Of a stretch of 64,000 nt of DNA, positions 8,666-32,486 are shown piece after piece. Position numbers and translations under genes: made by a program. Within the stretch, counting starts at the first letter, position 1; each line of letters opens with the position of its first letter. Under the pieces are notes generated by a model. It did no database searches and was not told the origin of the DNA. It saw only the letters and a list, made by a program, of their open reading frames with translations. Source of the DNA: Stygiolobus caldivivus (GTDB taxonomy: Archaea; Thermoproteota; Thermoprotei_A; Sulfolobales; Sulfolobaceae); assembly GCF_019704315.1 (NCBI RefSeq), contig NZ_AP024597.1, forward strand, positions 1,240,001 through 1,304,000, read 5' to 3'.

Positions 8666-10726
8666 ATGCGTATAGAGGTCGAAGAGAAAGAGGGTATATA
8701 TAAGGTCACGATAAACGAGCCCTTCCCTCCGCTAGACTTACAGTTCAACGGGAATAAGTCTCAAAAGTCCTTAGCCGATTTAGGGCTGGACGTAACCACA
8801 GAGGGGGGCTACCTCGTTATCGAAAAAGAACTACACCTGAAAGAGCACGTCCTAGGCCTCGGAGAAAAAGCCGTGGAACTGGACAGGCGGAGAAGGAGGT
8901 ACGTCATGAACAACACCGACCCCGGTATATACCAGAAATTCCACGACCCGTTATATATCAACATCCCGTTTATGATATCAGTAGTGGAAGGAAAGGCTAC
9001 GGGATACTTCGTTAATTCAGCCTCACTCCTCGTCTTCGATATAGGGTTTGAGGACTACGGTAAGGTCAGGGTCAAAGTCCCCGAGGAAGGGGTAGAGCTG
9101 TACATCCTTGAAGGGCCCACGATAGAGAAAGTCCTAGAGAGGTATTCCTTACTCGTGGGTAAGCCCTTCCTCCCCCCTAAGTGGGCTTTCGGTTACATGA
9201 TCTCTAGGTACAGCTACTACCCGCAGGACAAGATAGTGGAGTTAATAGACCTGCTTAAGGGGGACGGGTTCCCGGTAGAGGCGGTGTTCTTAGACATAGA
9301 CTTTATGGACTCCTTCAAGCTCTTCACGTGGCACAAAAAGAGGTTTTACGACCCTGCGAAATTTTTAAACGATGTCCACTCCCGCGGTGTAAAGGTGGTC
9401 ACAATAGTTGACCACAGCGTCAGGGCAGACCAGAACTACGAAGTGTTCGCCTCCGGTCTGGGGAAATACTGCGAACTGGACACGGGGGAGCTGTTCGTGG
9501 GGAGGCTGTGGCCGGGTAACTGTGTATACCCGGACTTCTTCAGGCAGGACACGAGGGAGTGGTGGAGTAAGCTCATCGCCGACTGGTTGTCCCAAGGGGT
9601 GGACGGTATATGGTTAGACATGAACGAGCCCACAGACTTCAGCAGGATAGACGCTATAAACCAAGTGTTTAGAGGTACGCCTATCCAAGTCAAGGACCTC
9701 AGGGAGTACGGTAGGTTCCCCGAAAACGTAGTCCACTACTTTAAGGGGAAGAAAGTACCCCACAACCGAGTGAGGAACGCCTACCCTTACTACCAAGCTA
9801 TGGCGACTTTCGACGGGTTTAAGAGTGCAGGTAAAGGGGAAGTGTTCATATTATCTAGGAGCGGGTTCGCGGGTATACAGAAGTACGCCTTCGTCTGGAC
9901 CGGGGACAGTACGTCTTCTTGGGACCAACTGCGGTTACAGATCCAGATGGTCTTGGGGCTCTCCATCTCGGGTGTGCCTTATGTCGGGATAGACATAGGT
10001 GGGTTCCAGGGAAGGAACCAAAAGGAAATAGACAACTCACCTGAGATGCTCATGAGGCAGTTCCAGATCGCCATGTTCTTCCCGTTCTTCAGGACCCATA
10101 AGGCCCCGGACGGGGTAGACACTGAGCCCATCTACCTACCGTCGTACTACAAAGAAAAAGTAAAGAAAGTAATCGAGACGAGGTATAGATTCTTACCCTA
10201 CATGTACTGCCTAGCAGAGGAAGCACATGAGACCGGGCACCCCATAGTCAGGCCTTTGTTCTATGAGTTCCAGGAAGACGAGGACACGTATAGGGTAGAC
10301 GACGAGTATATGTTGGGGAGTTGGGTACTTTACGCCCCGGTCATTTACCCGCAAATGGAGGTGAGGAAGTCGTATTTACCGGTAAAGGCAAAGTGGGCGG
10401 ACTTCTGGACGGGGGAAGTCCTGCAGGGGTGGGTGGACTCGAGGAATGACCTACCGGTATACATCAGGGAAGGGTCAGTAATACCGCTGTCTGAGGGGGA
10501 CTTCATAGTATATGGAGAGGGCAGTATAACTGTTGAAGGAGTTAGTGTCAGGAGTAGCGGTAAAAAGGTGACGTTCTCAAAGCCTTACCGGCTCGGGAAG
10601 TTGTTGGTATACGGGCTTGGGCCTGAGAGGGCCAGAGCGGACGGGAAAGAAGTAGAGGTCGTGAGGGAGGGGAAGGTCACCGTGGTCAGAGTGGACGGCA
10701 CAGTGAAAGAGGTAGAGATGGAGTAA
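8666..10726 (+). CDS. malA: Alpha-glucosidase, GH31 (MalA type)
   Basis: A 686-residue GH31 enzyme that releases glucose from maltose and malto-oligosaccharides. The nucleophile is D318 in WLDMNEPTDF and the general acid D414 in WTGDSTSSWDQL. These match D320 and D416 of S. solfataricus MalA with a constant offset of two, and the length is close to its 693 residues. There is no signal peptide, so it is cytosolic. Alpha-xylosidase XylS is a GH31 relative, but it is longer and less likely. The gene stands alone with a leaderless promoter. An orphan transposon 3' end starts 5 nt after the stop and points toward it. Confidence 0.93.
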   Translation: MRIEVEEKEGIYKVTINEPFPPLDLQFNGNKSQKSLADLGLDVTTEGGYLVIEKELHLKEHVLGLGEKAVELDRRRRRYVMNNTDPGIYQKFHDPLYINIPFMISVVEGKATGYFVNSASLLVFDIGFEDYGKVRVKVPEEGVELYILEGPTIEKVLERYSLLVGKPFLPPKWAFGYMISRYSYYPQDKIVELIDLLKGDGFPVEAVFLDIDFMDSFKLFTWHKKRFYDPAKFLNDVHSRGVKVVTIVDHSVRADQNYEVFASGLGKYCELDTGELFVGRLWPGNCVYPDFFRQDTREWWSKLIADWLSQGVDGIWLDMNEPTDFSRIDAINQVFRGTPIQVKDLREYGRFPENVVHYFKGKKVPHNRVRNAYPYYQAMATFDGFKSAGKGEVFILSRSGFAGIQKYAFVWTGDSTSSWDQLRLQIQMVLGLSISGVPYVGIDIGGFQGRNQKEIDNSPEMLMRQFQIAMFFPFFRTHKAPDGVDTEPIYLPSYYKEKVKKVIETRYRFLPYMYCLAEEAHETGHPIVRPLFYEFQEDEDTYRVDDEYMLGSWVLYAPVIYPQMEVRKSYLPVKAKWADFWTGEVLQGWVDSRNDLPVYIREGSVIPLSEGDFIVYGEGSITVEGVSVRSSGKKVTFSKPYRLGKLLVYGLGPERARADGKEVEVVREGKVTVVRVDGTVKEVEME

Positions 10727-11240: not shown

Positions 11241-11615
11241 TTAACCTACATCGCGGACACAGCTTATATTGTATTTCTCACACAACCCGAGGTCATCTCT
11301 CAGGACGACACCGCTACCCCTAACGTCCCACGTGATGGGGTTGCCCTTCTCTAGTGCCTTGTGGAACTCCTCCTCTGTTAATGGTATTACCTCGAAGTTT
11401 GGGGGGAAGTCTAGTCCTAACAGCCTTTCTAAAGGGTTACCCATGAAGTCCCCTATTAAGAGGACGTCAATATCACTCCATACGTTGAAGTCCCCCCTAG
11501 CATAAGACCCGATCAGGAAAGCCGAATATCTCCCTTTTAAGGAGTTAACGTAAGCCCTAGCCTTTTCTATTACTTCCCTCCTCTTTCTTTCTCTCTCTGC
11601 AATAATGTCCTCCAA
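11241..11615 (-). CDS. MNT-type nucleotidyltransferase (antitoxin of a HEPN/MNT pair)
   Basis: A 124-residue minimal nucleotidyltransferase. GSYARGDFNVWSDIDVLLIG (about residues 36-55) holds the GS...D-x-D metal motif. MNT proteins of HEPN/MNT modules neutralise the HEPN RNase, in characterised cases by AMPylating it. The start overlaps the end of the upstream HEPN gene by about 46 nt, so they form one operon on the minus strand. ATG at 11615 is open to revision. Confidence 0.85.
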   Translation of the reverse strand: MEDIIAERERKRREVIEKARAYVNSLKGRYSAFLIGSYARGDFNVWSDIDVLLIGDFMGNPLERLLGLDFPPNFEVIPLTEEEFHKALEKGNPITWDVRGSGVVLRDDLGLCEKYNISCVRDVG

Positions 11616-11989
11616 AGCCCCTCTATATAATTTATTATCTCCTCCGCGTATTTAATCGCTTCTTCAGCCTCACCCTTAGTGTAATAGTACTGGGGGGTCT
11701 CACTCTGCCACGCGTCCGGGTACCTAGTGGGGATGTATAGCTTGTCCAAGTATTTAGCCTTGTCGACCAAGTCTTGAGGGACGTTAAGTAAGGACAGTAA
11801 GTAGGACACCGTATGGCCCGTCTTGGGCTGCCCTATACCGTAAAAGTAGGCCTTTACAGCGAGCTCGGCGGACTGCTGTGCTTTAAAGCAAGCCCAGTTA
11901 TAGAACCCCCCTCCGAGGTCGTGTCTGGCGCTCTCTAAGGTAAGTTTTCCGGACTTAAACCACCGGTCGAACTCACCAGTGTCGAGCAT
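11570..11989 (-). CDS. HEPN-domain protein (toxin of a HEPN/MNT pair)
   Basis: A 139-residue all-helical protein. Typical HEPN features are FDRWFKSGKLTLESARHD, then the NWACFKAQQSAELAVKAYFYGIG helix, GHTVSYLL, and a C-terminal YPDAWQSETPQYYYTKGEAEEAIKYAEEIINYIE. The pattern matches the broken HEPN at 38301. HEPN proteins of this class act as RNases or ligand-binding partners of MNT. It is the first gene of the pair. Confidence 0.85.
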   Translation of the reverse strand: MLDTGEFDRWFKSGKLTLESARHDLGGGFYNWACFKAQQSAELAVKAYFYGIGQPKTGHTVSYLLSLLNVPQDLVDKAKYLDKLYIPTRYPDAWQSETPQYYYTKGEAEEAIKYAEEIINYIEGLWRTLLQREKERGGK

Positions 11990-13803: not shown

Positions 13804-15558
13804 TTAACTCACCACCGCTTTTACCAGCCCTTGCGGGGTGTCTATGGGTAACCCCCTCTTAACTCCGAGTTTGTAAGCCATTAACTGTAGCGGGACGACA
13901 TTAGCTATGGGGCTTAGGTCCCTTGAAGTCTCTACACTTTTAACGCTACCCTCGGGTGATACGCTGATTATAGGGCTCCCCCTATCAGAGAGGGACTTCA
14001 CGACCTTATTGTAGAGGTCAAAAGCCTGCTCCTCAGAAGGCTTGATAATAATTATCGGGTAACCCTTATTTGTGAGGGCTATAGGCCCGTGGAGGAGTTC
14101 TCCTAATTGGATCCCCTCAGCGTGTGCTAAGGCAGCTTCTTTAAACTTTAACGCTCCCTCTAAGGCTACCGGGAAATTTATACCGCTACTCGTTATGTAA
14201 AGGCTGTCTTTTTCTACCTTCGAAATAGCATCTTCAGCCTGCTTTTCTATCTGAGGTAGGGATGTGTATATCTGCTTTGACAACTCCTCTAAGTCTTTCT
14301 CAAATGCTTCTAAATCCTTTCTGTCTTTTTTGCCTGAATTTAACCCGGTATAGAGCGATAGGGTCCTCAGCACTACTAGGGTCGACGTAAAAGTCTTTGT
14401 AGCGGGGACGGCTAACTCCGGTCCCGCGGTAATCGGTAGGTAGATGTTTGACTCCAAGGCGAGCCTTGACCCCACGGAGTTGGTAACACCTACAATAACC
14501 GCTCCCCTCTGCTTAGCCATTTTTATACTCCTTATCACGTCCGAGGTCTCTCCGCTCTGGCTAATCGCGATGATGACAGACCCCGTAGAGATGTTTTGTA
14601 AAGCGTAATAGGGGAATTCAGCAGCACTCACCACGTTAGCGTTTATCCCGACTTCGGAGAAGTAATAATATGAAATCAGCCCGGCGTGGAGGCTAGTCCC
14701 GTTCCCTATTACGTATATGTTCTTAGCCCCGTAAACTATCATCGCGGCGAGGCTGAGGTATTTCTCCATAAGGGAAGTATACGAATTAACTAGACATGAA
14801 GGTATATCATAGACCTCTTTTAACATGTAATGGGGGAAGCCGCCTTTATCTACGATCTCCTCCTTATACTTTACCCTCTTTATCTGGGGGCTCAGCACGT
14901 TAATGTTTATGTCATACACCTTTACACCCTCCGGTGTAACTTCAGCCACTGAGTTCTCAGGTAATATCACAGCGTTCTCCGCAAAACCTGTCAGTGAAGG
15001 TAAGTCACTTGAGATATATTTACAGTCACCTAACCCGATCATTATAGGCTGTCCGGCCGAAGCTACGAAGGCCTTGTCCATCCCTTCCACTATGAAGGCA
15101 AAGGAGTAAATCCCTCTTACTCTCGATATAATATCTATCGCGGACTTAAGGTAGTCCCGAGACCCTTCCAAAAGGTGGGGGATGACTTCAGCGTCGGTAG
15201 TCGAGGTGAACTTATGCCCCTGCTTTACCAACCTCTCCCTTATCTCCTCGTAGTCGTCAATTATCCCGTCCATTACGACTGCTATCTTTTTATTGCAGTC
15301 TAAGAGGGGGTGCGTGTTTTCTAATGTGGGCCAGCCCCTGCTCGCATACCTAGTATGACCGAGTGCTACCTTCGACTTACCGTTTACTTTCAGGGGAGTC
15401 TTGGAGACGTCCCCCAAGGCTTTTGTGACCTCAAGGCTGTCGTTAAGCCACGTCATGCCCGCACCGTCGTAACCCCGGTAAATAAGCCTACTCAAACCGA
15501 CGTTCACCGTGGAAAGGTCTCTCGGTTCCCTGCATACAAAGCCGAAAATGCCTCCCAT
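13804..15558 (-). CDS. GlmS-like aminosugar isomerase with inactive glutaminase domain
   Basis: A 584-residue protein with the layout of GlmS (glucosamine-6-phosphate synthase): N-terminal Ntn glutaminase domain (1-about 220) and two SIS domains. It starts MGGIFGFV, so the catalytic Cys of MCGIFG is Gly (GGA codon). The oxyanion Asn is Asp (VMDGII for VVHNGII), and the W-T-H of RWATHG is Y-S-R. The sugar domain is intact: [28 protein letters not shown] and the C-terminal Lys in GLVKAVVS. It therefore cannot use glutamine as known GlmS does, and may work with free ammonia or in reverse as a glucosamine-6-phosphate deaminase. Divergent nagA supports the catabolic reading. Confidence 0.88.
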
Positions 15559-15591
15559 ATCTTTTTAACCTCGCCCAAGTTCTTAAGTGTT
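15559..15591. promoter_or_regulatory. Overlapping divergent promoters, glmS-like and nagA
   Basis: Only 33 bp separate the two start codons. CTTTTTAACC (15561-15570) is a TATA-like box for nagA, and CTTAAGAA read on minus (about 15582-15589) is one for the GlmS-like gene. Each lies about 25-30 nt from its start. The promoters interlock, so one bound regulator would control both. Confidence 0.5.
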
Positions 15592-16698
15592 GTGAAAATT
15601 ACAAATGTAAAAATAGTTACTCCCTACAAAGAGTTTACCGGGACTATAGAGGTAGAAAGTGGTAAAATTAAGAGGGTATACGAGGGCAAAGACCGAGGGG
15701 AAGACATGGAGGGGCTAATCGCAGTCCCGGGCTTTGTGGACGTCCACACCCACGGTATAGGGGGTTATGATTTTACCTCATGGAGATCCGTAGACGAGTT
15801 TCTGGGTAATTTGCTGAAGATGAGGGAAATATACGTAAAGTACGGGGTCACAACTTTTTTACCTACCACCGTCACCCTCCCTAAGGAAGACTTAGCAGAA
15901 GCTTGCAAGGCTGTAGGGGAAATTGAAGACCCGTCAATAGCGGGCTTGCATCTGGAGGGCCCCTTCATAAGTGAAAAGCATGCCGGGGCCCAAGATGTCA
16001 GGTATATAAGGAGTCCCGATATGACTGAAGTGAGACGGTGTGTCGAGCTTAGCAAAAACAAGTTGAGGACGGTAACAGTAGCGCCAGAGAAGGGATTGGA
16101 ATTCGTCTCGGCGTTAGTAGGTATGGGTATACACGTATCCATCGGCCATACCGATGCGGACTACGAGACGGCTACAAAAGCGTTCCTGCTCGGGGCGGAT
16201 AGGACGACCCATATTTTTAACGCTATGAGGCCTTTTCACCATAGAGACCCGGGGGTAATACTGGCCAGTATAAACTACTCTCCTTACATAGAAATAATCC
16301 CGGACTTTATTCACGTAGACAAGGAGTTGGTAAAATTCCTGGTCAAAAGTGTAGGTAGGGAAAGAGTTGTCGGGGTCACCGATTCCATTATGGCCGCGGG
16401 GCTGTCCGACGGGGAATATACACTGGGAAAGGTGGAGATTACGGTAAAGGAAGGGAGGGCTCTCACCAAAGAAGGTAAGTTGGCTGGTAGCACTCTGACG
16501 ATGGACAAGGCATTTGCTAACTTGGCTAAGCTCACCGGTCTCTATGACGCGGTCATGATGACCTCTTATAACCCTGCCAAAGCTTTAGGGCTTACGGATA
16601 GGGGCGCGTTATTACCCGGGAAAAACGCTGATATAGTGCTATTGGATGACAAATTGAGGGTAGTTAAAGTATATAAAAATGGTGAAGAAATAGGTTGA
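15592..16698 (+). CDS. nagA: N-acetylglucosamine-6-phosphate deacetylase NagA
   Basis: A 368-residue amidohydrolase-fold enzyme that removes acetate from GlcNAc-6-phosphate. Motifs in order are [16 protein letters not shown] (metal site), [41 protein letters not shown] and [15 protein letters not shown] (catalytic Asp). The frame is open upstream to 15355, but that extension lies antisense inside the GlmS-like gene, so GTG at 15592 (VKITNVKIV) is chosen. It is divergent from the GlmS-like gene with interlocked promoters. The two could form a GlcNAc-6-P to GlcN-6-P to Fru-6-P route. No GlcNAc kinase is in the window. Confidence 0.92.
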
Positions 16699-19256: not shown

Positions 19257-22136
19257 TCACCCCTCTAACTTTATAGTAATTATTTCATAATTACGGTAAT
19301 TAAATCTCACCTTATTTCCGTTTAGCTGGACACGGCCGCTAATAGGGTTCTCAAGCACGTTCACCCGCTCTACCTTATTGGGGTTAAACCACAATTCGAC
19401 CTCGCCCTCGCCTCTGTTATTTTGGACGTTATACAACCTGACGACTATACCTCTTTTGTCTTCTGACCCCTTTATGGCTTCTACGACTAAATTGTCCGGT
19501 CTTACCCTTACGAAACTCCCCTCTCCACCCTTTCCCCTAACTACCTTCAAGGGGTAATTGAGCTCATAAGCCCTCTGATATACTTTAGCCTCTTTCCAGT
19601 CGCCTTTATGGGGGTAAACGGAGTATGTAAAGCTGTTGGCCTCTGCATCCGTAGTGTAATCGGGGTAGATAGGGGTCTTAGCTAAGGAAAGGCCCACGGC
19701 GTTCCCCTCAACTGCCACCCCGTATTTACCGTCGTTTAAGACCGCCACCCCGTAGTCGTCCTCAGATAGATCCAGCCACTTCCCCATCGGTACCTCAAAC
19801 TTAGCCTTTTCCCAACTTGTGTTCCTTGTGGTCTGCCTCTTCAGTACCCCGTAAGGCACTTCGAAGGTCGCCTCTGGGGTATTTAAATCGAAGTAAAACC
19901 ACGATTTCAGTAACAGCTCCCTGTCAGGCATTGAGATAGTAGTCTTGAAGTCTATCCTCCTACTCTTTGCGTATAAGCACACGTCTTGTAAGACTTTTGA
20001 GTTCCTGAACGTATAATAGAACCTGACGCAAGCCCTGAAGGGGCCCGTCTCCTTTATTTCGTACTTTTCAGCCTTGAGTTCAAACTTTTTGTCCTCATAA
20101 GAAGGTTCAATGTCCCAAGCGTCAGCCCAGCCCGGTATGTTCTCGTAGACTACGAGTTTATTAGAAGGGGAACTCAGGGCTTCCCTCCCAGTTTCCTTGT
20201 CGTATAGCGAAGCCAGCGTCCCGTCCCCGTTTAGTTTTACTTTAAGGTATTCGTTCTCCATTATAAGCCCTTCTAACCTCACCGGGTTTACCCTGAGGGG
20301 TTTAAGTTCGGTATAACCTAAGGGAGGGGCCCTGACCCTGACGAGGTAACCCTCTTCAGTCCTTTGTCCCCCCTCTACCTCCTCTCCTAAAACCACATAG
20401 TCCTCCCTGTCCCACGACAAAGAGTTAAAGACCATCAATTTATCTCCCTCCCCTGCTATTCTCTTGATAGAGTCTAAAGCGACTTTATCGGCTTCCTTAA
20501 TTACGTTCTCCAGCTCCGGGTAGACCGTCTCATACACTTCCTTTATGGCAGAACCCGGCAATACGTCATGGAACTCGTCCTTGAGTAATGTCTTCCACAA
20601 TACCTTCAGCCTCTTTTCGTCATAGCTCCTCGCGATAGTAGACCATATCTCTGCCTCCCTTAAGGCTACCTCAGTCCTCCTGTGCAAGTATTTCATTCTG
20701 GAGTGAGAAGTGTAGACCCCCCTGTGAGTCTCTACGTAGAGTTCGCCGTTCCAGTTTTCCTTCGCCTCGTAGTTATGGGCTCCGCTTAATTCCACTGATG
20801 GCGTTGAAGGGAGTTGGTCTATGGCTTTCGCAGCGACCAGCATGTCTTCTGTAGGGCCCCCGCCTCCGTCCCCGTGCCCGTACGCGTACAATAAGGGTTG
20901 GTCTTTGTCCTTCCAATTATCCCATTGTTCTAATACACTCTCGACACTGAAATCTGAGTTATACCCTCCCCTACCGTTCCCGAAAGCTACAGCCGTGACT
21001 CTGGACCCGTCTATACCTATCCAGTTAAAGACCGAGTAGGGGAACTTATTGGTATCGCTCCAGAACAGTTTATGGGTAGCGAAGAGGTTTATCTCAGCCA
21101 ACCTCATGATCTGCGGTAATTGAGCGGAGAACCCGAAGGTGTCTGGGAGCCAGAGGACTTCAGCTTTCTTCCCGAAGTTCTCTTCATAAAACTGTTGGGA
21201 ATAAAGCAACTGCCTTACAAGGGACTCACCCGCCGGTAGGTTCGCGTCAAATTCCACCCACCCCGCACCCAAGACCCACCTACCTTCCTTTACTTTCTCC
21301 TTGATCTTGTTGAACAACGCGGGGTAGTCTTCCTTTACCCATTCGTAATATATTGCCATGCTTTGGATAAACGTGAAGTCGTACCTTTCCATGAGGTTAA
21401 GGACTGTAGAAAAAGTCCTCGCTACCTTCCTCCTCGTCTCGTCGAAGTTCCACAGCCACGCAGTGTCTATATGCGCGTGGGCAACGGCGTTCATTTTACC
21501 GGGCTTTCCGAAGAGCTCCCTGAGCCCCCTCACCCCTTCGGATAGGGCTTTCAGTGCTTCCTCATAACTCCCGCTGTGTTCAGGGTAATTCATGCCTTGT
21601 GTAAAGTCGAGTAAATGTCTGGGGAAGTCCCTCCAGTAGTGTGAGGCGAGGACAAGTTGATCCCTAGAGACCGAGGCAAAAGGGGCTAAAGATAGCGACT
21701 CGGTAAGTACTTGTAACAGTTTTTCCTTCAGGTACCCCTGAGCTAACTTAGCCAATTGCAGGGTCGTGTTAGCGTATACCCAGAAATTATAAGCGGACGG
21801 GTTCCGTTTAAAGGTCACCGGGGTCCCGGGCCTTATCTCAGTCCTCTGTCCGAACGCCTTAAACGGGGAGAAATCCGCTTCTATTTTTACCTTGCCCTTA
21901 GGTAACGGGAAGGTATTGTGGTAATCGTCTAACGCAAAATACGGCTCAGAGTTCACCTTAATTAACGCTGAACCGTGATAATCCAATACCATTAAGTACT
22001 TGTTGTCATCTCCGTTTTCAAGCCCCAGCGTGTAAGTAGTACCGCTAAGGGGGGCCCATTCTGTGTACCTTATATCGTAAAAGGAGTTTGCCAGCACAAA
22101 AGAAATACGCGTAAATATTTCGTTTTCCCTTCTCAT
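19257..22136 (-). CDS. Alpha-mannosidase, GH38
   Basis: An about 959-residue retaining glycoside hydrolase acting on alpha-mannosides. HAHIDTAWLWNFDETRRK (HxD at 223-225, Zn ligands) and WLPDTFGFSAQLPQI (nucleophile D333) are diagnostic GH38 motifs. DEFHDVLPGSAI carries another conserved His/Asp pair, and the C-terminal about 350 residues are the beta-domains. There is no signal peptide, so it is cytosolic. GTG at 22139 is followed at once by ATG at 22136, which I prefer. It is last in a minus-strand run after the permease and a 168-residue unknown, linking it to imported oligosaccharides. Confidence 0.93.
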   Translation of the reverse strand: MRRENEIFTRISFVLANSFYDIRYTEWAPLSGTTYTLGLENGDDNKYLMVLDYHGSALIKVNSEPYFALDDYHNTFPLPKGKVKIEADFSPFKAFGQRTEIRPGTPVTFKRNPSAYNFWVYANTTLQLAKLAQGYLKEKLLQVLTESLSLAPFASVSRDQLVLASHYWRDFPRHLLDFTQGMNYPEHSGSYEEALKALSEGVRGLRELFGKPGKMNAVAHAHIDTAWLWNFDETRRKVARTFSTVLNLMERYDFTFIQSMAIYYEWVKEDYPALFNKIKEKVKEGRWVLGAGWVEFDANLPAGESLVRQLLYSQQFYEENFGKKAEVLWLPDTFGFSAQLPQIMRLAEINLFATHKLFWSDTNKFPYSVFNWIGIDGSRVTAVAFGNGRGGYNSDFSVESVLEQWDNWKDKDQPLLYAYGHGDGGGGPTEDMLVAAKAIDQLPSTPSVELSGAHNYEAKENWNGELYVETHRGVYTSHSRMKYLHRRTEVALREAEIWSTIARSYDEKRLKVLWKTLLKDEFHDVLPGSAIKEVYETVYPELENVIKEADKVALDSIKRIAGEGDKLMVFNSLSWDREDYVVLGEEVEGGQRTEEGYLVRVRAPPLGYTELKPLRVNPVRLEGLIMENEYLKVKLNGDGTLASLYDKETGREALSSPSNKLVVYENIPGWADAWDIEPSYEDKKFELKAEKYEIKETGPFRACVRFYYTFRNSKVLQDVCLYAKSRRIDFKTTISMPDRELLLKSWFYFDLNTPEATFEVPYGVLKRQTTRNTSWEKAKFEVPMGKWLDLSEDDYGVAVLNDGKYGVAVEGNAVGLSLAKTPIYPDYTTDAEANSFTYSVYPHKGDWKEAKVYQRAYELNYPLKVVRGKGGEGSFVRVRPDNLVVEAIKGSEDKRGIVVRLYNVQNNRGEGEVELWFNPNKVERVNVLENPISGRVQLNGNKVRFNYRNYEIITIKLEG

Positions 22137-22158
22137 CACTATGAAATAACTTTGACAG

Positions 22159-22665
22159 TTAATAAGGCTTGCCTTGTTTTGTTAACCTATCAACTTCCTC
22201 CCTGAACCGGTTGTCGTTCAAATACAGCCTCGTATATACCTTGTCCGCTTCGCCGTCAAATAGTAATTCCGTACCTCTTACGGAAATGTCGTGCCAAGTG
22301 AGGTCGTATTTCGGGCTGTCTTTAAGGATCGAGAGTAACTTGGAATACAAGTCCCTAAAGATTTTCTTCATAGTTTTTTCCATTATCTCTCTCTCCCTGT
22401 TCCTCATATAAACGGACTGGTTATAAAATATAGATTCCAATATTTCTGATAATCTGAGGGACGTATGTTGGGCCTCTTCAGTAGCCCTGAACCCCTCTTC
22501 TATATACAATATAACTAAATTATAGGGTATGGGTCCTATCTCCCCTGAAGGTAATCCTTGCTTTCCCTTTTTGACTAATAATACCCTGTCCTCACTGTGG
22601 GTGAGCTTGTCGAGGAAGTAGGCGTCTATCATTATATTTTCTACTATATAAAAAGGTATTAGCAA
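22159..22665 (-). CDS. Unknown 168-residue protein in the mannoside operon
   Basis: No family recognised. It is predicted soluble and mixed alpha/beta: VLLVKKGKQGLPSGEIGPIPYNLVILYIEEG, then a long charged helix (NREREIMEKTMKKIFRDLYSKLLSILK) and YDLTWHDISVRGTELLFDG. The first 11 codons before MIDAYFLDKL could be untranslated; ATG at 22632 is an alternative start. It lies 1 nt after the upstream permease stop and about 20 nt before the mannosidase, so it is surely co-transcribed. A regulatory or accessory role in mannoside use is inference only. Confidence 0.65.
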   Translation of the reverse strand: MLIPFYIVENIMIDAYFLDKLTHSEDRVLLVKKGKQGLPSGEIGPIPYNLVILYIEEGFRATEEAQHTSLRLSEILESIFYNQSVYMRNREREIMEKTMKKIFRDLYSKLLSILKDSPKYDLTWHDISVRGTELLFDGEADKVYTRLYLNDNRFREEVDRLTKQGKPY

Positions 22666-22666
22666 G

Positions 22667-23545
22667 TCAGACCCTCCTGAGCCTCGGGTTTGAGATCTCG
22701 TCTATTCCGTAGCTCAACATTATCAGCCCGAACATGAACATGACTACAAAGAACGAGGGCCAAAATAAGTACCAGAAGGCCTGGTTACCGTAAATCCCCC
22801 CGTCCTGCAATGCCTCATTTATCATTACACCCCAGTTGTACTGGCTCACGGGTAGGATCCCTAAGAAATAGAGGCCTACGGAAGCGTACAGTGCCCCCTC
22901 TACGTTAAATATGAAGTGTATCGCTATGTAGGACGCAATTGTGGGCATGATCTCCCTGAATATAATGTGAAAACTCCCTAACCCTAATATCCTTGAGACC
23001 TCGACGTAAGGTAGGTTTTTCATGAGGAGGATCTGAGACCTGATGGCCCTGGCCAGCCCCGTCCAACCACTAATACTCAATATACCGGCCAGGATAAACG
23101 GGTTCGTCGTCTTCAAGGACGTGGCGAGGATGAGTATAAGGATCAGGCTCGGCATAGTCATCACTATATCGTTAATCGACATGAGCACGTTATCCACTAT
23201 ACCCCCGATATACCCAGCTACCATCCCCACCGTGATCCCTATTAGAGTAGTGAATAGCCCTGCTAAGAAACTCACTTCGAGGATGAACGGGGCCCCCCAG
23301 ACTATGTCCCCTAAAATACTACACCCCAACGGCCCCGTCCCTAGGATATATTCGGGGCTCAGCATGGGCGGCCTGAATATCATGTTGGGGTTAATATTAA
23401 CGACTACGGGTTTGGGGACTATTAACGGGCCTACAGTACCCAACAGTATGAAAAACACTGTTATTATTAACCCGGCTTTCCCCTTGTTGTTCCTCCAAAT
23501 AAGCTTAAGGTAATCGACGAGTTTCATGTAAATAAAAATCCGCAT
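22667..23545 (-). CDS. ABC transporter permease, DppC-like
   Basis: A 292-residue inner permease of a peptide/opine/nickel-type importer, which in Sulfolobales often carries oligosaccharides. There is a long N-terminal helix (GKAGLIITVFFILLGTVGPLI), a DppC-type periplasmic loop with RPPMLSPEYILGTGPLGCSILGDIVWGA, and the EAA loop EVSRILGLGSFHIIFREIMPTIASY, which docks to the ATPases. About six membrane helices. ATG AAA (MKLVDYLKL) seven codons in is an alternative start. It is separated from dppB/D/F-like genes by a 550-bp gap and a small gene. Confidence 0.88.
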   Translation of the reverse strand: MRIFIYMKLVDYLKLIWRNNKGKAGLIITVFFILLGTVGPLIVPKPVVVNINPNMIFRPPMLSPEYILGTGPLGCSILGDIVWGAPFILEVSFLAGLFTTLIGITVGMVAGYIGGIVDNVLMSINDIVMTMPSLILILILATSLKTTNPFILAGILSISGWTGLARAIRSQILLMKNLPYVEVSRILGLGSFHIIFREIMPTIASYIAIHFIFNVEGALYASVGLYFLGILPVSQYNWGVMINEALQDGGIYGNQAFWYLFWPSFFVVMFMFGLIMLSYGIDEISNPRLRRV

Positions 23546-24094
23546 TGCAAGTTAAAAACTTAATACTAGGTCGCCGTAGTACCCAGGTAGGGTTTGCGTT
23601 TTACCGCTGTACAAACTTTTAAGGGTTTTGTCCCTCACTGCCTTGCTGACTAAACCGCAAAAAGCCCGATCAAAGCATAAATTTTAAGGCCTCAGGAGCG
23701 GGACTTCAAGCTTTGAGGAATTAAGGGTTCGCTTAGGCATTTACCGCGAATTGAAATGTTTCCTCTCCAATTGTATGGCCCACGGAGCAAATAAATGGTG
23801 TACGAAGTCGTTCTGGTTAAACTAAATTGTAAATACTCGCCTTATGCTTTTACGCGGTATTACGTATTAACGTTGATAAGCTTGTGTTTGATAATTAGGT
23901 ATAATCAATAACGCGATCAAAAATCGCAAAACAAACTGGTTAGCCAGAGTCGATGCAGGCCCTCCGAGTACTTTCGTGACGGGGGGGGGGGGACTCCTTA
24001 ATTTAAAACTGTATGAGAACGATTATAATGCCGTATCTGTATACAAGTTCATTGACGGGAAAATTTAATTCTCGCTAACGGCAGATATTTATTT
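23546..24094. other. Intergenic region with a 12-G tract
   Basis: No gene recognised. 23981-23992 is a run of 12 G, the same length as at 10904. The sequence interrupts the otherwise minus-strand transport cluster. Confidence 0.4.
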
Positions 24095-24280
24095 ATGACC
24101 GACTATAGGGGCTTATTAGCTTTCGGTTACATTTTTCTATTCCTGTCCATTTTCTCACTGATATTCGATTATAAAATTTTATACTTGGACGCGGTTATCT
24201 CGTTCACGTTAATTATCTCGGTCTTCGCAATAGTTTACTCTATTTATAAGATTAGGAAGGAAGCCAGAGAGGGGCTCTAA
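24095..24280 (+). CDS. Small two-helix membrane protein
   Basis: A 61-residue protein with two hydrophobic helices (LLAFGYIFLFLSIFSLIF and LDAVISFTLIISVFAIVYSIY) and a basic C-terminus KIRKEAREGL. No family recognised. It is on the plus strand inside a minus-strand transport cluster, and its stop touches the stop of the convergent 24281 gene. Evidence is the membrane-protein pattern and tight convergent packing. Confidence 0.55.
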   Translation: MTDYRGLLAFGYIFLFLSIFSLIFDYKILYLDAVISFTLIISVFAIVYSIYKIRKEAREGL

Positions 24281-24775
24281 CTACTTCCTTTTCTTACGTT
24301 GACCCCTCTTTACACTTTCCTGTTTTGATAAAGCGCGGTTGTAGGCTAGCAGTACTAGCCCTAAACCTATCAGTACCCCTGAAATCGTATAGCCTGTTTG
24401 CGAGAAGTCCGTGTTATAGACTAAAATTTCAGCCGTGACATTAGACGGGTAATTCCCCCCTTCTATTAAGAGCTCCCTAAACGGCATTACGTAAAAAGTC
24501 TTTGAAAAATTTCCCTTGAGCTCCCCTAAATAATCCCCTGCATAAGGTGGGTTTTCCTGCAAGACGAGTACTGGGTAAGTGGAGTACCCTTTTATTTTAG
24601 CCAGGTCACCGGGACTACCGCCAAACGATATTGTATAACCGCTTTTCTCCCCTACGAAAAGGTGGAACGATTTTTCATAGACCACACTATTTGAGTAGTA
24701 GAGTGTAAAGGGCACCATGATTACCCCAAAAAATAGCAACAGTAAGGAGATGGTCAAGAGCACTTTCATCTCCAT
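24281..24775 (-). CDS. Membrane-anchored protein of the sugar ABC operon
   Basis: A 164-residue protein. The N-terminal helix (VLLTISLLLLFFGVIMVPFTLYY) is followed by an about 100-residue external beta-type domain (EKSFHLFVGEKSGYTISFGG...), then a C-terminal helix (GYTISGVLIGLGLVLLAYN) and a very basic tail KRGQRKKRK. ATG at 24775 overlaps the upstream ATPase stop as TGATG, which fixes the start; a TTG 18 nt earlier is less likely. Small proteins of this layout occur in Sulfolobales transport operons, but I cannot name a function. Confidence 0.7.
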   Translation of the reverse strand: MEMKVLLTISLLLLFFGVIMVPFTLYYSNSVVYEKSFHLFVGEKSGYTISFGGSPGDLAKIKGYSTYPVLVLQENPPYAGDYLGELKGNFSKTFYVMPFRELLIEGGNYPSNVTAEILVYNTDFSQTGYTISGVLIGLGLVLLAYNRALSKQESVKRGQRKKRK

Positions 24776-25734
24776 CAACCGTAAAGGTAACAAGCTACTT
24801 TCCTGTCCCTGTTAACAGTATAGTTGGGGAAACCTTTCTTACACTTGTCTACGGCGTATGGGCATTTAACGCTAAAAGGACACCCTTGGTTGGGTATTAC
24901 AGCCTCTTTAGGTTCTTGTACACCACGGTCTTCCGCCTCAGCAGCCTCATAATTTATGTCGATGTAAGAGCCCACCAGAAACTTAGAATAAGGGTGCAGA
25001 GGGTTCTGTATTATATCGTCTATCTTTCCTTCCTCTACGACTCTACCCCCGTAAATCACGACTCCCTTAACCCCTTCCGACTTGTAGTTCAAGTATTTAG
25101 CTATCGCTAAGTCGTGAGTTATTAATACCAAGGTCATATCCATTTCTTTCTTAAGTTTCACGAGGAGGTCTATTATACCCACCCTGTAGGAAGCGTCTAA
25201 CATCGTTACGGGCTCATCGGCTATTAAGACCTTGGGGTTTACAGATATAGCCCTAGCTATGTTTACCCTCTGTAACTGTCCCCCGGATAACTGGTTAGGG
25301 TACCTGTCGACCAGCGAAGGGTCTAAACCTACAGCTTTAACCAATTCCACTACTTTACCGTATAACTCGTCCCCCTTTAATTTTAGGTGTTTTTTTACCG
25401 GGTAGGAAATCGACTCCCTTATCGTCTTTGACGGGTTTAAGGCGCTAATGGGGTCTTGATAGATGTATTGCACTTCCCTCCTGACTTCCTTTCTAGCCCC
25501 CTTGTCTTTCCACACGTCCTTGTCCTTATACAGATAAGTGCCTCCGGTAGGCTTTTCCAACGCCACCAATACCCTAGCTAATGTAGTCTTACCCGCCCCG
25601 CTTTCCCCTATTACGGAGACAGTCTCCCCGCTGTTAATTTCCAAGTCTACGCCTTTTAAAGCGTATATGACTTTCTTGTTAAACCTACCCTGCGTATACC
25701 TGACCGTGAGGTCATCCAGCTTTATTAGTGCCAT
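24775..25734 (-). CDS. ABC transporter ATP-binding protein, DppF-like
   Basis: A 319-residue ATPase. Walker A GESGAGKTT, Q-loop YIYQDPISALNP, signature LSGGQLQRVNIARA, Walker B VLIADEPVTMLD and H-loop ITHDL. The C-terminal oligopeptide-transporter extension has the four cysteines typical of the family (GCPFSVKCPYAVDKC...VACYLYG), which may bind an Fe-S cluster. It overlaps the DppD-like gene by 23 nt and pairs with it to power the importer. Confidence 0.93.
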   Translation of the reverse strand: MALIKLDDLTVRYTQGRFNKKVIYALKGVDLEINSGETVSVIGESGAGKTTLARVLVALEKPTGGTYLYKDKDVWKDKGARKEVRREVQYIYQDPISALNPSKTIRESISYPVKKHLKLKGDELYGKVVELVKAVGLDPSLVDRYPNQLSGGQLQRVNIARAISVNPKVLIADEPVTMLDASYRVGIIDLLVKLKKEMDMTLVLITHDLAIAKYLNYKSEGVKGVVIYGGRVVEEGKIDDIIQNPLHPYSKFLVGSYIDINYEAAEAEDRGVQEPKEAVIPNQGCPFSVKCPYAVDKCKKGFPNYTVNRDRKVACYLYG

Positions 25735-26680
25735 AAAGGAAACACCTCACTCTCCTACCGTTAAAAGCGGATATACCGGGGTGTTGGGTTTTACAGCTCT
25801 CCATTACCCTATCACACCTGGTGCTGAACAAACAACCTTCAGTAGAAGGCAACCCCTCCCTTATGGGCCTCACCCTATCGAGGTCACCCTTGATGGAAGG
25901 CACGGAGCTCATAAGGGCGTTCGAGTAAGGGTGTAAGGGTTTTTTAATAATTTCTTCCGTCCTACCTTCCTCGACTATCTCCCCGGCGTACATGACGATC
26001 ATTTTAGTGGATATGAAAGCAGCTACGGGGATATCGTGAGTTATAAAAATAATAGAAGTGCCCATGTCTTTATTAATGTCCTTTATTATTTCCAATAAGT
26101 ATTTTTGGGTCGCTACGTCTAAAGAGCTCACGGCTTCGTCCATTATGACCAACTCCGGGTTAAGGAGTAAACTCAGGGCTATTAGCACCCTCTGCTTCAT
26201 GCCCCCGCTCAGTTGAAAGGGGTAAGCCTTCGCGACCCTTTCAGGGTCCAGCCTTACTGTCCTGAGTAGGTTCAACGCCCTTTCAGTAGCTTCCTCCCTG
26301 CTCAGCCCGTGAGAATACGCGGTGTCATAGAAGTGGTCTATGACCCTCATAGTGTTGTTAAGGGAGTTCTGGGACGCCTGAGGTACGTACGATATTAATT
26401 TCCACAGTACTTCTCGCCTAAACTCTGACTCTTTCATCGCTAAAAGGTCTTTCCCTTTAAAGAATATCTTTGACTGGGGCCCTATCCTACCGGGAGGCCT
26501 TATCGCCCTGAGGATCGCTTTAGCTAACGTGGACTTCCCCGACCCGCTCTCCCCTATTATCCCCAAGACCTCCCCTTTTTCCATGGAAAAACTTTCATCC
26601 CTCACAGCCCTTATTTCAGAGCTACCCACACGGTACCAGACCGAAAGGTCTCTAACGTCCAGGAAACCGGAGACCGACAT
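25712..26680 (-). CDS. ABC transporter ATP-binding protein, DppD-like
   Basis: A 322-residue ATPase, first of the pair. Walker A GESGSGKST, Q-loop YVPQASQNSLN, signature LSGGMKQRVLIALS, Walker B LVIMDEAVSSLD, H-loop ITHDI. The C-terminal extension again carries paired cysteines (GCLFSTRCDRVMESCKT...VRCFLYG). It lies 7 nt downstream of the DppB-like permease and overlaps the DppF-like gene, so translation is coupled. Confidence 0.93.
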   Translation of the reverse strand: MSVSGFLDVRDLSVWYRVGSSEIRAVRDESFSMEKGEVLGIIGESGSGKSTLAKAILRAIRPPGRIGPQSKIFFKGKDLLAMKESEFRREVLWKLISYVPQASQNSLNNTMRVIDHFYDTAYSHGLSREEATERALNLLRTVRLDPERVAKAYPFQLSGGMKQRVLIALSLLLNPELVIMDEAVSSLDVATQKYLLEIIKDINKDMGTSIIFITHDIPVAAFISTKMIVMYAGEIVEEGRTEEIIKKPLHPYSNALMSSVPSIKGDLDRVRPIREGLPSTEGCLFSTRCDRVMESCKTQHPGISAFNGRRVRCFLYGTNKAG

Positions 26681-26687
26681 GTGCCTT

Positions 26688-27689
26688 TCACTCGTTCCTT
26701 ACCCTAGGGTCGATCAGCGAGTACGTGAGGTCGGCTAACAGTACGCCCACCACCACAGCAGTAATTATTATAATGAATATCCCCATTTCTAACGTATAGT
26801 CGTTGTTCGTAATCGCGTAATAAAGTAGGTTACCTACACCGGGGTAACTGAAAATTTCCTCTACAAACACCGAACCACCAAAGGAGAACCCTATCGAAAT
26901 TATAAGGCTCGTATATAAGGGGAGTAGAGCGTTCCTCCCTACGTATTTAGTCTCAATTAATTTGTCCCTGACCCCCCTTATTTCCGCAAAACTCACATAG
27001 TCCTCTCCTAAGGTGTAAATAGTATTCGCCCTCATGTGCAGTGCCCAACCCGCTAAGTTGGCCAAAGTGAGGGTACTTATAGGGAGAATAGCGTGGTATA
27101 GGACGCTCACTATAAAGGGCAAGCTCAGGCCCGGTGTTATGCTGGCAGAGTAAGCCCCACCGGTGGGGAACCAATGTAACTCAAACCCTAAAATAAACAG
27201 GAATAGTGCCCCGCTTATGTATAGGGGTATAGAGCGTAACAAGGTGAAAAAGGTGGTCAGGGAAGAATCGACTTTGCTACCCCTCTTATAGCCCATCTTC
27301 TGGCCTACCCTTATACCCAAGAAGAAGCTTATGAGCAAAGAAGTGGACACTATGAAGATCGTCCACGGTAAAGACGTAGCTATGATCGTAGTTACGGGCT
27401 CTTCAGAGATCACGTCCAGCCCCAAATTCCCGTGCAGTACTTGCCAAATATAGTTGAAAGCCTCTATCACGGGGTTACCGTGGGGCACTAAGTCGTTATA
27501 AAACTGTAACTCGGACGCGTATATTTGGGCAAACTTAGGGTTACTCGCCTCCGTTACCCTCAAGTTTGTGAGGAGCGCATTAGCCGGGCTGTTCGGGGAA
27601 TACTCTATCAAGACCCAACTTATTATAATGGTAATAATAATTGTGAGAAATGCCATGGCAACTCTTCTTATAAGCCAAGCTTTGTTCAT
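26688..27689 (-). CDS. ABC transporter permease, DppB-like
   Basis: A 333-residue permease. The N-terminal helix MNKAWLIRRVAMAFLTIIITIIISWVLIE and a DppB-type large first loop (about 30-95) are followed by five more helices and the ATPase-docking loop SFAEIRGVRDKLIETKYVGRNALLPLYTSL. A Shine-Dalgarno-like GAGGTG lies about 10 nt before the ATG, unusual among the mostly leaderless genes here. It heads the operon dppB-dppD-dppF-24281. With the SBP at 30528 it makes a full importer. Confidence 0.9.
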   Translation of the reverse strand: MNKAWLIRRVAMAFLTIIITIIISWVLIEYSPNSPANALLTNLRVTEASNPKFAQIYASELQFYNDLVPHGNPVIEAFNYIWQVLHGNLGLDVISEEPVTTIIATSLPWTIFIVSTSLLISFFLGIRVGQKMGYKRGSKVDSSLTTFFTLLRSIPLYISGALFLFILGFELHWFPTGGAYSASITPGLSLPFIVSVLYHAILPISTLTLANLAGWALHMRANTIYTLGEDYVSFAEIRGVRDKLIETKYVGRNALLPLYTSLIISIGFSFGGSVFVEEIFSYPGVGNLLYYAITNNDYTLEMGIFIIIITAVVVGVLLADLTYSLIDPRVRNE

Positions 27690-28473: not shown

Positions 28474-29508
28474 TCATTTCATCTCTACGGGGACAAGCTT
28501 TATCGGCATCCTCTCTCCTAAGTACTCCAAAAGGTCCATGTCCTCCGGTAATACCTCCCCTATTACGTTAAACCTCCTATCAGCTTCTACCTCTCTCTTA
28601 AATATCCACACTTCAATTACGTCCGGTCTCCCGTTCATCACCGTGACCGCCCCCCTAAACCTCCTCGTTATATTCCTGGGCTTAATGTCGTTCTTAGCAA
28701 GCGTATTTAGAGCAACGGAATACTCCTTAATCCTTACATCGTAAAACTTCACACTAAAGACTTTGTTCTCCTCCTCCGTTAGGCCCGGGTAAACTAATAC
28801 CCTGACCTTAGTGTATTCTCTAGCTTCCACTAATTCCGATAGTTCCTCGTCGGTCGGAAAGGGGTCTCCTAGTATCACCCTATCAATGACCCCGGTGTTA
28901 AACGCGATGGAAGCGGACTTTCCTACGTCCTTCCCCCTGAAGACCTCTACCGTAGTGCGACCTTCCACTTCCCTCGGTGAAGGTATAAATAAGGCTACGG
29001 GGATGCCCCTCTCTTTAAACTCCTTTGACTTTTTCACCGTGTCCTCTAACGATAGTGCAGTATACTTAATGGGGTAAAAGTCGTGGCTGGCTTTTAAGAG
29101 TTCAATATCCCTTACCTTGCTTATCACGTAGTCCAACTTATCCGTGGGGAATATACTGGCGTTAAGTTCTATTACAAGCCCTAAATCGTTATTAGCCATC
29201 TTTATTATCTCTTCCACGCTGAAGCCGTAATCAGCCCTAAGCCCCTTAACTTTTAGGTCTTTAAAGACCTGGAGGTTAGAGGGAGACGCGCCAAAACCCT
29301 TCAATATGTCAGGGTTTATGTCCACAAAAAAATACATATTATATTTCTCCGCTACGTTAGCGATCTCCCTTACCCCCTCAACGTATTGGGGGTCTACCCC
29401 TGACCAAACCTCGGTATACCCAAGCCTCCCGGCCTTTTCTGCGACCTCCTTTAATTGGTTTATCTTTTCCTTCCTCCACGCTTGTGAAAGTATTCCAATA
29501 GACCTCAT
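28474..29508 (-). CDS. DUF871/MupG-like TIM-barrel glycosidase-type protein
   Basis: A 344-residue protein. The N-terminal part is a TIM barrel beginning RSIGILSQAW...EKAGRLGYTEVWSG, with VIELNASIFP and PIKYTALSLEDT inside. The C-terminal about 110 residues form the small cyclophilin-like domain, with RNITRRFRGAVTVMNG and FNVIGEVLPEDMDLLEYLGE, as in DUF871. Bacterial members (MupG) are 6-phospho-N-acetylmuramidases. Archaea lack muramic acid, so the substrate must differ, perhaps another phosphorylated amino-sugar ether or glycoside. It lies between the ABC operon and the SBP gene. Family placement is by memory of motif layout. Confidence 0.7.
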   Translation of the reverse strand: MRSIGILSQAWRKEKINQLKEVAEKAGRLGYTEVWSGVDPQYVEGVREIANVAEKYNMYFFVDINPDILKGFGASPSNLQVFKDLKVKGLRADYGFSVEEIIKMANNDLGLVIELNASIFPTDKLDYVISKVRDIELLKASHDFYPIKYTALSLEDTVKKSKEFKERGIPVALFIPSPREVEGRTTVEVFRGKDVGKSASIAFNTGVIDRVILGDPFPTDEELSELVEAREYTKVRVLVYPGLTEEENKVFSVKFYDVRIKEYSVALNTLAKNDIKPRNITRRFRGAVTVMNGRPDVIEVWIFKREVEADRRFNVIGEVLPEDMDLLEYLGERMPIKLVPVEMK

Positions 29509-30512: not shown

Positions 30513-30527
30513 TTGATCAGAAATGGT

Positions 30528-32486
30528 ATGAATACACATAAACTGTCAAAGTATTTAACTTTAGGAATAGTAATGGTACTCCTAATACCTTTAGCGTCTT
30601 CTCTAATGGTGTCGGCACAAATGAACTCTTCAACGTTATACATAGGGTGGGTGACGTCACACCCATACCAGAGCTTGTCCACTTATAACCCCAACTTGTT
30701 CGACGGGGGGTTAGGCGGGTCATTTTACGGCTTGGTCTACGCCTATACGGCCCTACTTAACGTCTCGAATAACGGTATAATACCGTGTCTAATAGAGAAC
30801 TGGAGCTTTTCTCCTTCTAACTGGGAGCAGGTGTGGCAGAACGAGACGGTAAACGTCACAATAACTTTAAGGCACTCCGGCTGGGCTAACGGTGCACCTG
30901 TCACGGCTTACGACATAGAGGCTACTTGCCTCATTTTAGATATACTTGGCGCACCTCCTTACCCCAACTACACCGTAGTGAACAACTACACTATAATAAT
31001 TTCACACCCTCCGGATACACTTTCACCTTACCTACTGGCGTTTACCGAAATATGTGCGATAGGGCTGGGGGAGGTAGCGTTAATTTCCAGTTACTCACAG
31101 TATAAGCCCCTAGTACAGCAGATCCATGCTGACTGGACCCAGTTACAACACGACAACACAACATTAATAAAGAAGCTGAGGAGCGAACTCCACAGTTACT
31201 TACCGCCGGGGCCTTTACCCGCTAATTATAACGGGCCGTATTACGTAGCCCAGATAACCCCGAACGAGATCGTCTTGGACAAGAACCCCTACTATTTCGC
31301 GGCTAATAACATAAAGTTTAACCAAGTAGTCATCTACCAGTTCTCCTCTATATCTTCAGCCGAAGCCGCAGTGCTTAAGGGGCAGGTGTCCATCGAATAC
31401 AGCGCGTTCATGTCACTGCCTTCGACCTTAATCTCCAGCCTACCGTCGTATTATGAGGTAGTAAACATACCCGATCCCGGCGGTTATGCCTTATACTTTA
31501 ACTTCAAGAACCCGTGGCTGGCGCAACTCCCGGTTAGGCAAGCCATAGCCTATGTCCTCAACAGGACGTCAATAGCACTTGCAGGTGGGTCAAAGTATTC
31601 CCCCGTCCCCATACCTAACGGGATCCCCAACTTCACCTACTATAAGCAGTATATCACCCCGGCAGTCCAGAACCTCAACCCCTATAGTACCAACTTACAG
31701 AAGGCCACGCAGTTACTTGAGAGTGCAGGGTTTACCATGAAGAACGGACAGTGGTATACCCCCAACGGGACTCCGTTTACGTTAACCATTATCGTCCCTA
31801 CTTCACCCGGCCCAGGCTTAACGAATATGCTGAACGTCATAAAGGACGAGCTGACGTCTTTCGGCATACCTACGTCTTACTACATAGAGACGGTAAGTAG
31901 TGTTTTAATAAAGGACTGGCAGACGGGCCAAAACTACGACTTGGCCGTACAAGGGTGGGGAGGGTATTACCCGGTAACGGTGGACTGGTATTTGGAGACC
32001 CAGTATTTCGCCGGGATACCCTATAACGTGACCCAGTGGGACGGGGTAGTGACGCTCCCCAACGGTACTCAGGTGAACGTGATCAAGCTGTACAGTGCTA
32101 CAGTGGCACCTAACTCCTCCGCAGAACTAACTTCCGCAAATGACGAGATGGCTTACGCGCTCAACTATTACTTACCCGCACTACCATTAGTATATGAAGC
32201 CCAACAGGTAATCATAAACACCCACGACTTAGTAGCACCTCCGCCCAGCTCTTGGTTCTGGCAGGAATACTTCTACGGGATCGGAGGGACAGCGATAAAC
32301 CAGTTAGGGTTATCTTCCGATTACCTGCAGCCGGTTAGCATAGTTACCACCACGTCGACGAGCACCGCACCACCCGTGACCACGAGTACGACCACCTCGG
32401 TAAGCCCGTTAGAGGTCGCAGGGATAGTCGTAGTAGTTATCGTGATCATAGCCGTCGCTTTAATAGCACTTAGGAGGAGGAAGTAA
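30528..32486 (+). CDS. ABC transporter substrate-binding protein, family 5 (sugar-type, membrane-anchored)
   Basis: An about 652-residue extracytoplasmic binding protein. Residues about 8-30 form a class III-like or Sec signal. The body has the SBP_bac_5 order: VTITLRHSGWANGAPVTAYDIEAT, NYNGPYYVAQITPNEIVLDKNPYY, and PVRQAIAYVLNRTSIA. The C-terminus is a Thr/Ser/Pro linker plus one helix (LEVAGIVVVVIVIIAVALIAL) and RRRK, anchoring it as in Sulfolobus sugar-binding proteins. TTG at 30513 is in frame, but ATG at 30528 is preferred with the TATA box at 30489. It is probably the partner of the Dpp-like permeases and ATPases. Genes around it point to mannosides or amino sugars. Confidence 0.9.
   Translation: MNTHKLSKYLTLGIVMVLLIPLASSLMVSAQMNSSTLYIGWVTSHPYQSLSTYNPNLFDGGLGGSFYGLVYAYTALLNVSNNGIIPCLIENWSFSPSNWEQVWQNETVNVTITLRHSGWANGAPVTAYDIEATCLILDILGAPPYPNYTVVNNYTIIISHPPDTLSPYLLAFTEICAIGLGEVALISSYSQYKPLVQQIHADWTQLQHDNTTLIKKLRSELHSYLPPGPLPANYNGPYYVAQITPNEIVLDKNPYYFAANNIKFNQVVIYQFSSISSAEAAVLKGQVSIEYSAFMSLPSTLISSLPSYYEVVNIPDPGGYALYFNFKNPWLAQLPVRQAIAYVLNRTSIALAGGSKYSPVPIPNGIPNFTYYKQYITPAVQNLNPYSTNLQKATQLLESAGFTMKNGQWYTPNGTPFTLTIIVPTSPGPGLTNMLNVIKDELTSFGIPTSYYIETVSSVLIKDWQTGQNYDLAVQGWGGYYPVTVDWYLETQYFAGIPYNVTQWDGVVTLPNGTQVNVIKLYSATVAPNSSAELTSANDEMAYALNYYLPALPLVYEAQQVIINTHDLVAPPPSSWFWQEYFYGIGGTAINQLGLSSDYLQPVSIVTTTSTSTAPPVTTSTTTSVSPLEVAGIVVVVIVIIAVALIALRRRK

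Follow-up and report, generated by a model that had tools for sequence, protein, structure and literature searches.

The region analysed here, referred to below as the window, is a stretch of 64,000 nucleotides from the genome of Stygiolobus caldivivus, which is complete and consists of a single contig of 2.96 Mb. Its minus strand carries a stop-free open reading frame of 584 amino acids, which runs from an ATG at 15558 down to 13804 and whose product starts with MGGIFGFV. This protein has the two-domain architecture of GlmS, with an Ntn (glutaminase) half and a SIS (sugar isomerase) half, as well as the SIS catalytic residues. It scores 445.9 bits against the TIGR01135 glmS model (cut-off 418.05) and also passes the PRK00331 cut-off; thus, automatic annotation would call it glmS. 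A Pfam search matches PF01380 (SIS) with E=4.5e-35 and does not match PF01182 (Glucosamine_iso domain), and the models for the deaminases NagB-II and GlmD are not reached (132.9 versus 430 bits for NF046059 and 71.3 versus 580 bits for NF041128, respectively). As the initial annotation had pointed out, a divergent nagA lies beside this gene; it starts with GTG, scores 267.9 bits against TIGR00221 (cut-off 225.65), and only 33 bp separate the two start codons. The features of the locus are collected in Table 1.

Table 1. Features at and next to the glmS-like gene (positions in the window)
Feature	Position	Strand	Basis
Paralog of GlmS whose glutaminase (Ntn) domain is inactivated; proposed glucosamine-6-phosphate deaminase	13804..15558	-	ORF, residues, TIGR01135 score
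Pseudo-glutaminase domain, aa 1-232 (boundary approximate)	14863..15558	-	residues, pocket conservation, purifying selection
Two SIS (sugar isomerase) domains that keep their catalytic residues	13807..14862	-	PF01380, alignment, Foldseek
Divergent intergenic region, 33 bp, presumably back-to-back promoters	15559..15591	.	sequence
nagA	15592..16698	+	TIGR00221

Several other genes of the window are also of note. Within 17 kb of nagA there are a MalA alpha-glucosidase, a GH38 alpha-mannosidase, an oligopeptide-type ABC transporter set and an SBP_bac_5 binding protein (8666-10726, 19257-22139, 22159-27689 and 30513-32486), and the region is possibly devoted to the scavenging of glycans or glycoproteins. 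A protein of the MupG family (6-phospho-N-acetylmuramidase, PF19200) is encoded at 28474-29508 on the minus strand, in an archaeon, that is, an organism without murein. Members of this family are found near nagA or the paralog in five genomes (the window, L069:10698-11684, L064:13000-14013, L066:5657-6721 and L078:1512-2612), and they may be 6-phospho-amino-sugar glycosidases of the same pathway. Finally, overlapping nucleotidyltransferase (PF01909) and HEPN (PF05168) genes at 11241-11989 on the minus strand form a typical MNT/HEPN toxin-antitoxin-like pair.

Catalytic residues and the second GlmS of the genome

Residues are numbered here as in E. coli GlmS, with a reference sequence that agrees with the aligned E. 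coli GlmS chain from the PDB. In the glutaminase half, the alignment shows the changes C1G, W74Y, T76S, H77R and N98D, while R26, R73, G78, H86, G99 and D123 are kept. The replacement of the nucleophile Cys1, the presence of Asp in place of the oxyanion Asn98 and the changes in nearby residues, all of which had been noticed in the initial annotation, are thus borne out, as is its statement that the isomerase residues are intact: every SIS catalytic residue compared is kept (T302, S303, S347, Q348, S349, T352, E481, K485, E488, H504 and K603), and the changes in this half are Y304L, A400P, R599Q, N600G and A602V. In the absence of Cys1, glutamine-dependent synthesis by this protein is very unlikely. 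The Lys, Glu, His and terminal Lys that are catalytic in SIS-type deaminases are present as the equivalents of K485, E488, H504 and K603. Nevertheless, sequence alone does not fix the direction of the reaction, because synthases and deaminases share the SIS catalytic residues.

The same genome encodes a second, cysteine-bearing GlmS, for which the initial annotation had suggested a search. It lies at 578049-579803, starts with MCGIIG, has all the catalytic residues and is 37% identical to the window protein, which is referred to here as the paralog and cannot be the only GlmS of the genome. At 2652425 there is one more match, distant and short, which is restricted to the glutaminase part (31%) and probably corresponds to PurF.

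Distribution and origin of the paralog

Among the 31 genomes of the family, canonical GlmS is found in all (in G021 it is split across two contigs) and the paralog in 13. In a survey of 157 genomes of the order, with a completeness of at least 80%, the paralog is present in 68, forming two groups by score, and canonical GlmS accompanies it in nearly all carriers. Named records of the paralog include Sulfolobales archaeon HS-7, together with Desulfurococcales, Acidilobaceae and Sulfolobaceae MAGs, and a search of 397 genomes retrieved it from further orders of the phylum. The dead-glutaminase paralog thus spans several orders and is not local to one genome. No description of such a family was found in a search of the open-access literature.

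The residues that distinguish the window protein are practically invariant in a set of 81 paralogs, drawn from several orders within a single archaeal phylum. At position 1, all 80 sequences that have an N-terminus (one of the 81 does not) carry Gly, position 98 is Asp in 80 of 81 and Glu in the other, Trp74 occurs in none and position 400 is always Pro, while R73, G99, D123, K485, E488 and H504 are kept throughout. By contrast, 46 canonical GlmS sequences have Cys1, Asn98, Trp74 and Ala400. The Cys-to-Gly change was to be sought in orthologues according to the initial annotation, and its presence in every one with an N-terminus, as part of an N-terminal Gly-Gly, excludes a sequencing error or a wrongly chosen start. 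A substitute nucleophile was also considered at E. coli position 8 and rejected as a general one, since this residue is Cys in 45 of 50 clade A sequences but Ser in 26 of 29 in clade B. In a FastTree phylogeny all 81 paralogs fall in one clade with a support of 1.0 (the root is a single E. coli sequence, and the rooting is weak); a single ancient loss is therefore the simplest history. In effect, the dead-glutaminase paralog is an ancient second copy that stands beside a normal GlmS in many heat-loving archaea.

Two genomes, G119 (97% complete) and G120 (86%), show the dead paralog with no canonical GlmS seen, a pattern that may reflect sequence gaps or a paralog that there also performs synthesis. 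These genomes are relevant to an alternative function, namely that of an ammonia-dependent GlcN-6-P synthase that uses free NH3 when ammonium is plentiful and backs up canonical GlmS. The complete GlmS SIS active site, the apparent occurrence of the dead paralog alone in G119 and G120, and the precedent of carbamoyl-phosphate synthetase I (see below) are all in its favor. However, nearly all carriers also have canonical GlmS, the strong link of the paralog to nagA and PTS uptake is not needed by a biosynthetic enzyme, and the paralog is exchanged for stand-alone SIS proteins beside nagA, so that this alternative is considered unlikely.

Linkage to nagA and amino-sugar catabolism

Across the order, nagA is present in 57 of the 157 genomes. 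It co-occurs with the paralog in 46 of them, while 22 genomes have only the paralog, 11 only nagA and 78 neither (p=8e-13); counted by genera, the corresponding numbers are 19, 3, 3 and 37 (Fisher p=4e-10), in both cases with a test that ignores phylogeny. Within the family, exactly 15 genomes have nagA proper, namely the 13 paralog carriers plus G012 and G016. These two belong to six genomes that have nagA and, in place of the paralog, a stand-alone SIS protein (G012, G016 and G031-G034); in G016 it is encoded on the same strand as nagA, with which it overlaps. The other four, which are the nagA-bearing genomes of f2, likewise have short SIS proteins. The association is not absolute, as nagA is not detectable in the 22 genomes with only the paralog (all sampled members of genera g18, g34 and g53), and five genomes (G037, G121 and G134-G136) have nagA but lack both the paralog and a stand-alone SIS protein. 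Outside the order, nagA is found in 10 of the 10 genomes tested. In a genus of another order, g100, it is immediately upstream of the paralog on the same strand in six of six genomes, and the pair lies in a locus for sugar uptake by a phosphotransferase system (PTS). Adjacent pairs may be divergent, convergent or co-directional across lineages from several families, and these varied orientations argue for repeated selection for closeness. In addition, the initial annotation had envisaged a GlcNAc route without NagB, and it is in line with this that NagB (PF01182) was found in 0 of the 157 genomes of the order, in a search whose control matched in nine named genomes.

The genes around nagA and the paralog provide further context. 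Genes for a PTS of the mannose/AGA type surround one or both of them at L235, L236, L237, L238, L240 and L241 (another order). The EIIB, EIIC-D, HPr and EI components were confirmed by Pfam at L235 and L237, and EIIA at L237, the other loci being assigned by similarity. Such a system would import and phosphorylate the sugar ahead of NagA. A DUF7916 protein is also encoded inside the PTS/nagA locus L240 (2671-3555). In genus g7, the neighbors of nagA are the operon of an ABC transporter and a GH116-like gene (L079:10620-12572, L080:7309-9294 and L075:4262-8670, assigned through their similarity to L074, itself a match to GH116 Pfam models). The GH116 family includes beta-N-acetylglucosaminidases (PMC10167657), and the g7 genes are a possible source of free GlcNAc. 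A gene for a kinase of the BadF/ROK type adjoins the paralog in G237, and the genome of the window has one BadF-family kinase. Neighboring genes for a tRNA synthetase, a 5-FTHF ligase and a PEP-synthase-like protein were judged uninformative.

The type of PTS raises the question of the substrate. The paralog might act, as an AgaS-like deaminase/isomerase, on a different amino-sugar phosphate, for instance galactosamine-6-phosphate, in which case NagA would be a GalNAc-6-P deacetylase. The neighboring PTS is in fact of the mannose/sorbose/AGA type, a match to TIGR00221 is no proof of specificity for GlcNAc, and the Y304L and A400P changes are close to SIS motifs. Nevertheless, GlmS and NagB-II models match the SIS half, and agaS_fam is absent among the matches listed for the window protein, although it does weakly match the stand-alone SIS proteins. 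This substrate is thus deemed improbable, to about the same degree as ammonia-dependent synthesis.

The pseudo-glutaminase domain and the proposed reaction

The loss of its catalytic residues has not led to decay of the glutaminase half. In pairwise comparisons of close pairs, its dN/dS is 0.08-0.17, and the residues of the former glutamine pocket have a mean conservation of 0.95 versus 0.57 in the rest of the dead domain in clade A, and of 0.90 versus 0.54 in clade B, values matched by none of 20,000 random draws in either clade. A decaying pseudogene is ruled out by these observations. The balance between the two halves is nonetheless reversed with respect to canonical GlmS, where identity is 0.66-0.75 in the glutaminase half versus 0.55-0.71 in the SIS half; in the paralog the corresponding values are 0.56-0.72 and 0.68-0.85. 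An AlphaFold model of the window protein has a mean pLDDT of 81 and a pTM of 0.62, and is unreliable in domain orientation, residues 228-244 and the C-tail. With this model, Foldseek retrieves GlmS/GFAT overall, and GlmS isomerase domains mostly at a TM of 0.8-0.9 on the target.

It is known from structures of human GFAT-1 that the equivalents of R73, W74, T76, H77, H86 and G99 surround a bound glutamate, and that the R-, Q- and C-loops connect the glutaminase and isomerase sites (PMC7000685). PDB entry 3OOJ is a C1A mutant of E. coli GlmS with glutamate bound; therefore, a site without Cys can still bind a ligand. From its residues, the pseudo-glutaminase domain probably still binds one too, and it has probably been kept as a regulatory module, a role indirectly backed by the conservation of the pocket far above the rest of the domain. 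A function as a sensor is the simplest account of the preserved pocket, although the domain may also have a structural role. It is hardly credible, by contrast, that the whole protein is a non-catalytic pseudo-subunit that hetero-oligomerizes with canonical GlmS and adjusts it: a dead Ntn site with a preserved pocket would fit, but the catalytic residues of its SIS half do not vary within the clade, this half is the most conserved part, and the paralog is linked to nagA rather than to canonical glmS.

Taken together, and in agreement with the initial annotation, the paralog is most likely a GlmS-derived glucosamine-6-phosphate deaminase that keeps its pseudo-glutaminase as a ligand-binding and probably regulatory module; we infer its direction, ligand and regulation. 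In the proposed pathway, NagA would convert GlcNAc-6-P to GlcN-6-P, and the SIS half of the paralog would then open the ring and free the amino group as ammonia, yielding Fru-6-P and NH3 (the NagB reaction). Without Cys1, the oxyanion Asn98 and the gate residue Trp74, glutamine would no longer be hydrolyzed, so that it could not drive the enzyme backwards and no internal source of ammonia would push synthesis. An uncoupled ammonia channel would also fit the missing Trp gate and the changes in the C-tail. The pocket with Arg73, Gly99 and Asp123 probably still has an amino acid as its ligand (glutamine, glutamate or the like), and this ligand would adjust the activity of the SIS half by way of the R-, Q- and C-loops.

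A broader proposal is more tentative, and we lean slightly against it: that in a phylum-wide archaeal family a biosynthetic amidotransferase became a catabolic deaminase, with the dead domain as an amino-acid sensor (Arg73/Asp123/Asp98 binding glutamine, glutamate or the like) that switches amino-sugar breakdown by nitrogen status. The proposed deaminase would in itself fill the missing GlcN-6-P deaminase step of amino-sugar catabolism in archaea that have NagA and lack NagB. A systematic annotation error is also corrected, as the paralog passes a curated glmS cut-off and databases wrongly label it as the biosynthetic enzyme. Moreover, this natural, long-preserved pseudo-glutaminase offers a direct test case for how a sensor may evolve out of a catalytic site that has died.

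The paralog resembles several known systems in part. With GlmS/GFAT (EC 2.6.1.16; TIGR01135, E. coli 2J6H) it shares the full two-domain architecture, the SIS catalytic residues, the fold and a score above the cut-off, but it lacks Cys1, Asn98 and Trp74, is linked to nagA, forms its own clade and coexists with canonical GlmS. NagB-II/GlmD (NF046059, NF041128) share with it the proposed reaction, the SIS fold, the catalytic lysine, glutamate and histidine and the place beside nagA; these are, however, single-part SIS proteins of ~325 aa, whereas the paralog has an extra 232-aa pseudo-glutaminase and scores far below their cut-offs. NagB (PF01182) would have the same reaction and position in the pathway after NagA, yet it belongs to an unrelated family that is absent from all genomes surveyed in the order. 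Finally, in carbamoyl-phosphate synthetase I the glutaminase has lost its Cys but has been kept, and the enzyme works with free ammonia. It is thus another glutamine amidotransferase that retains a Cys-less glutaminase, although the enzyme and the class of glutaminase are different, and carbamoyl-phosphate synthetase I still synthesizes, while the reaction of the paralog is probably reversed.
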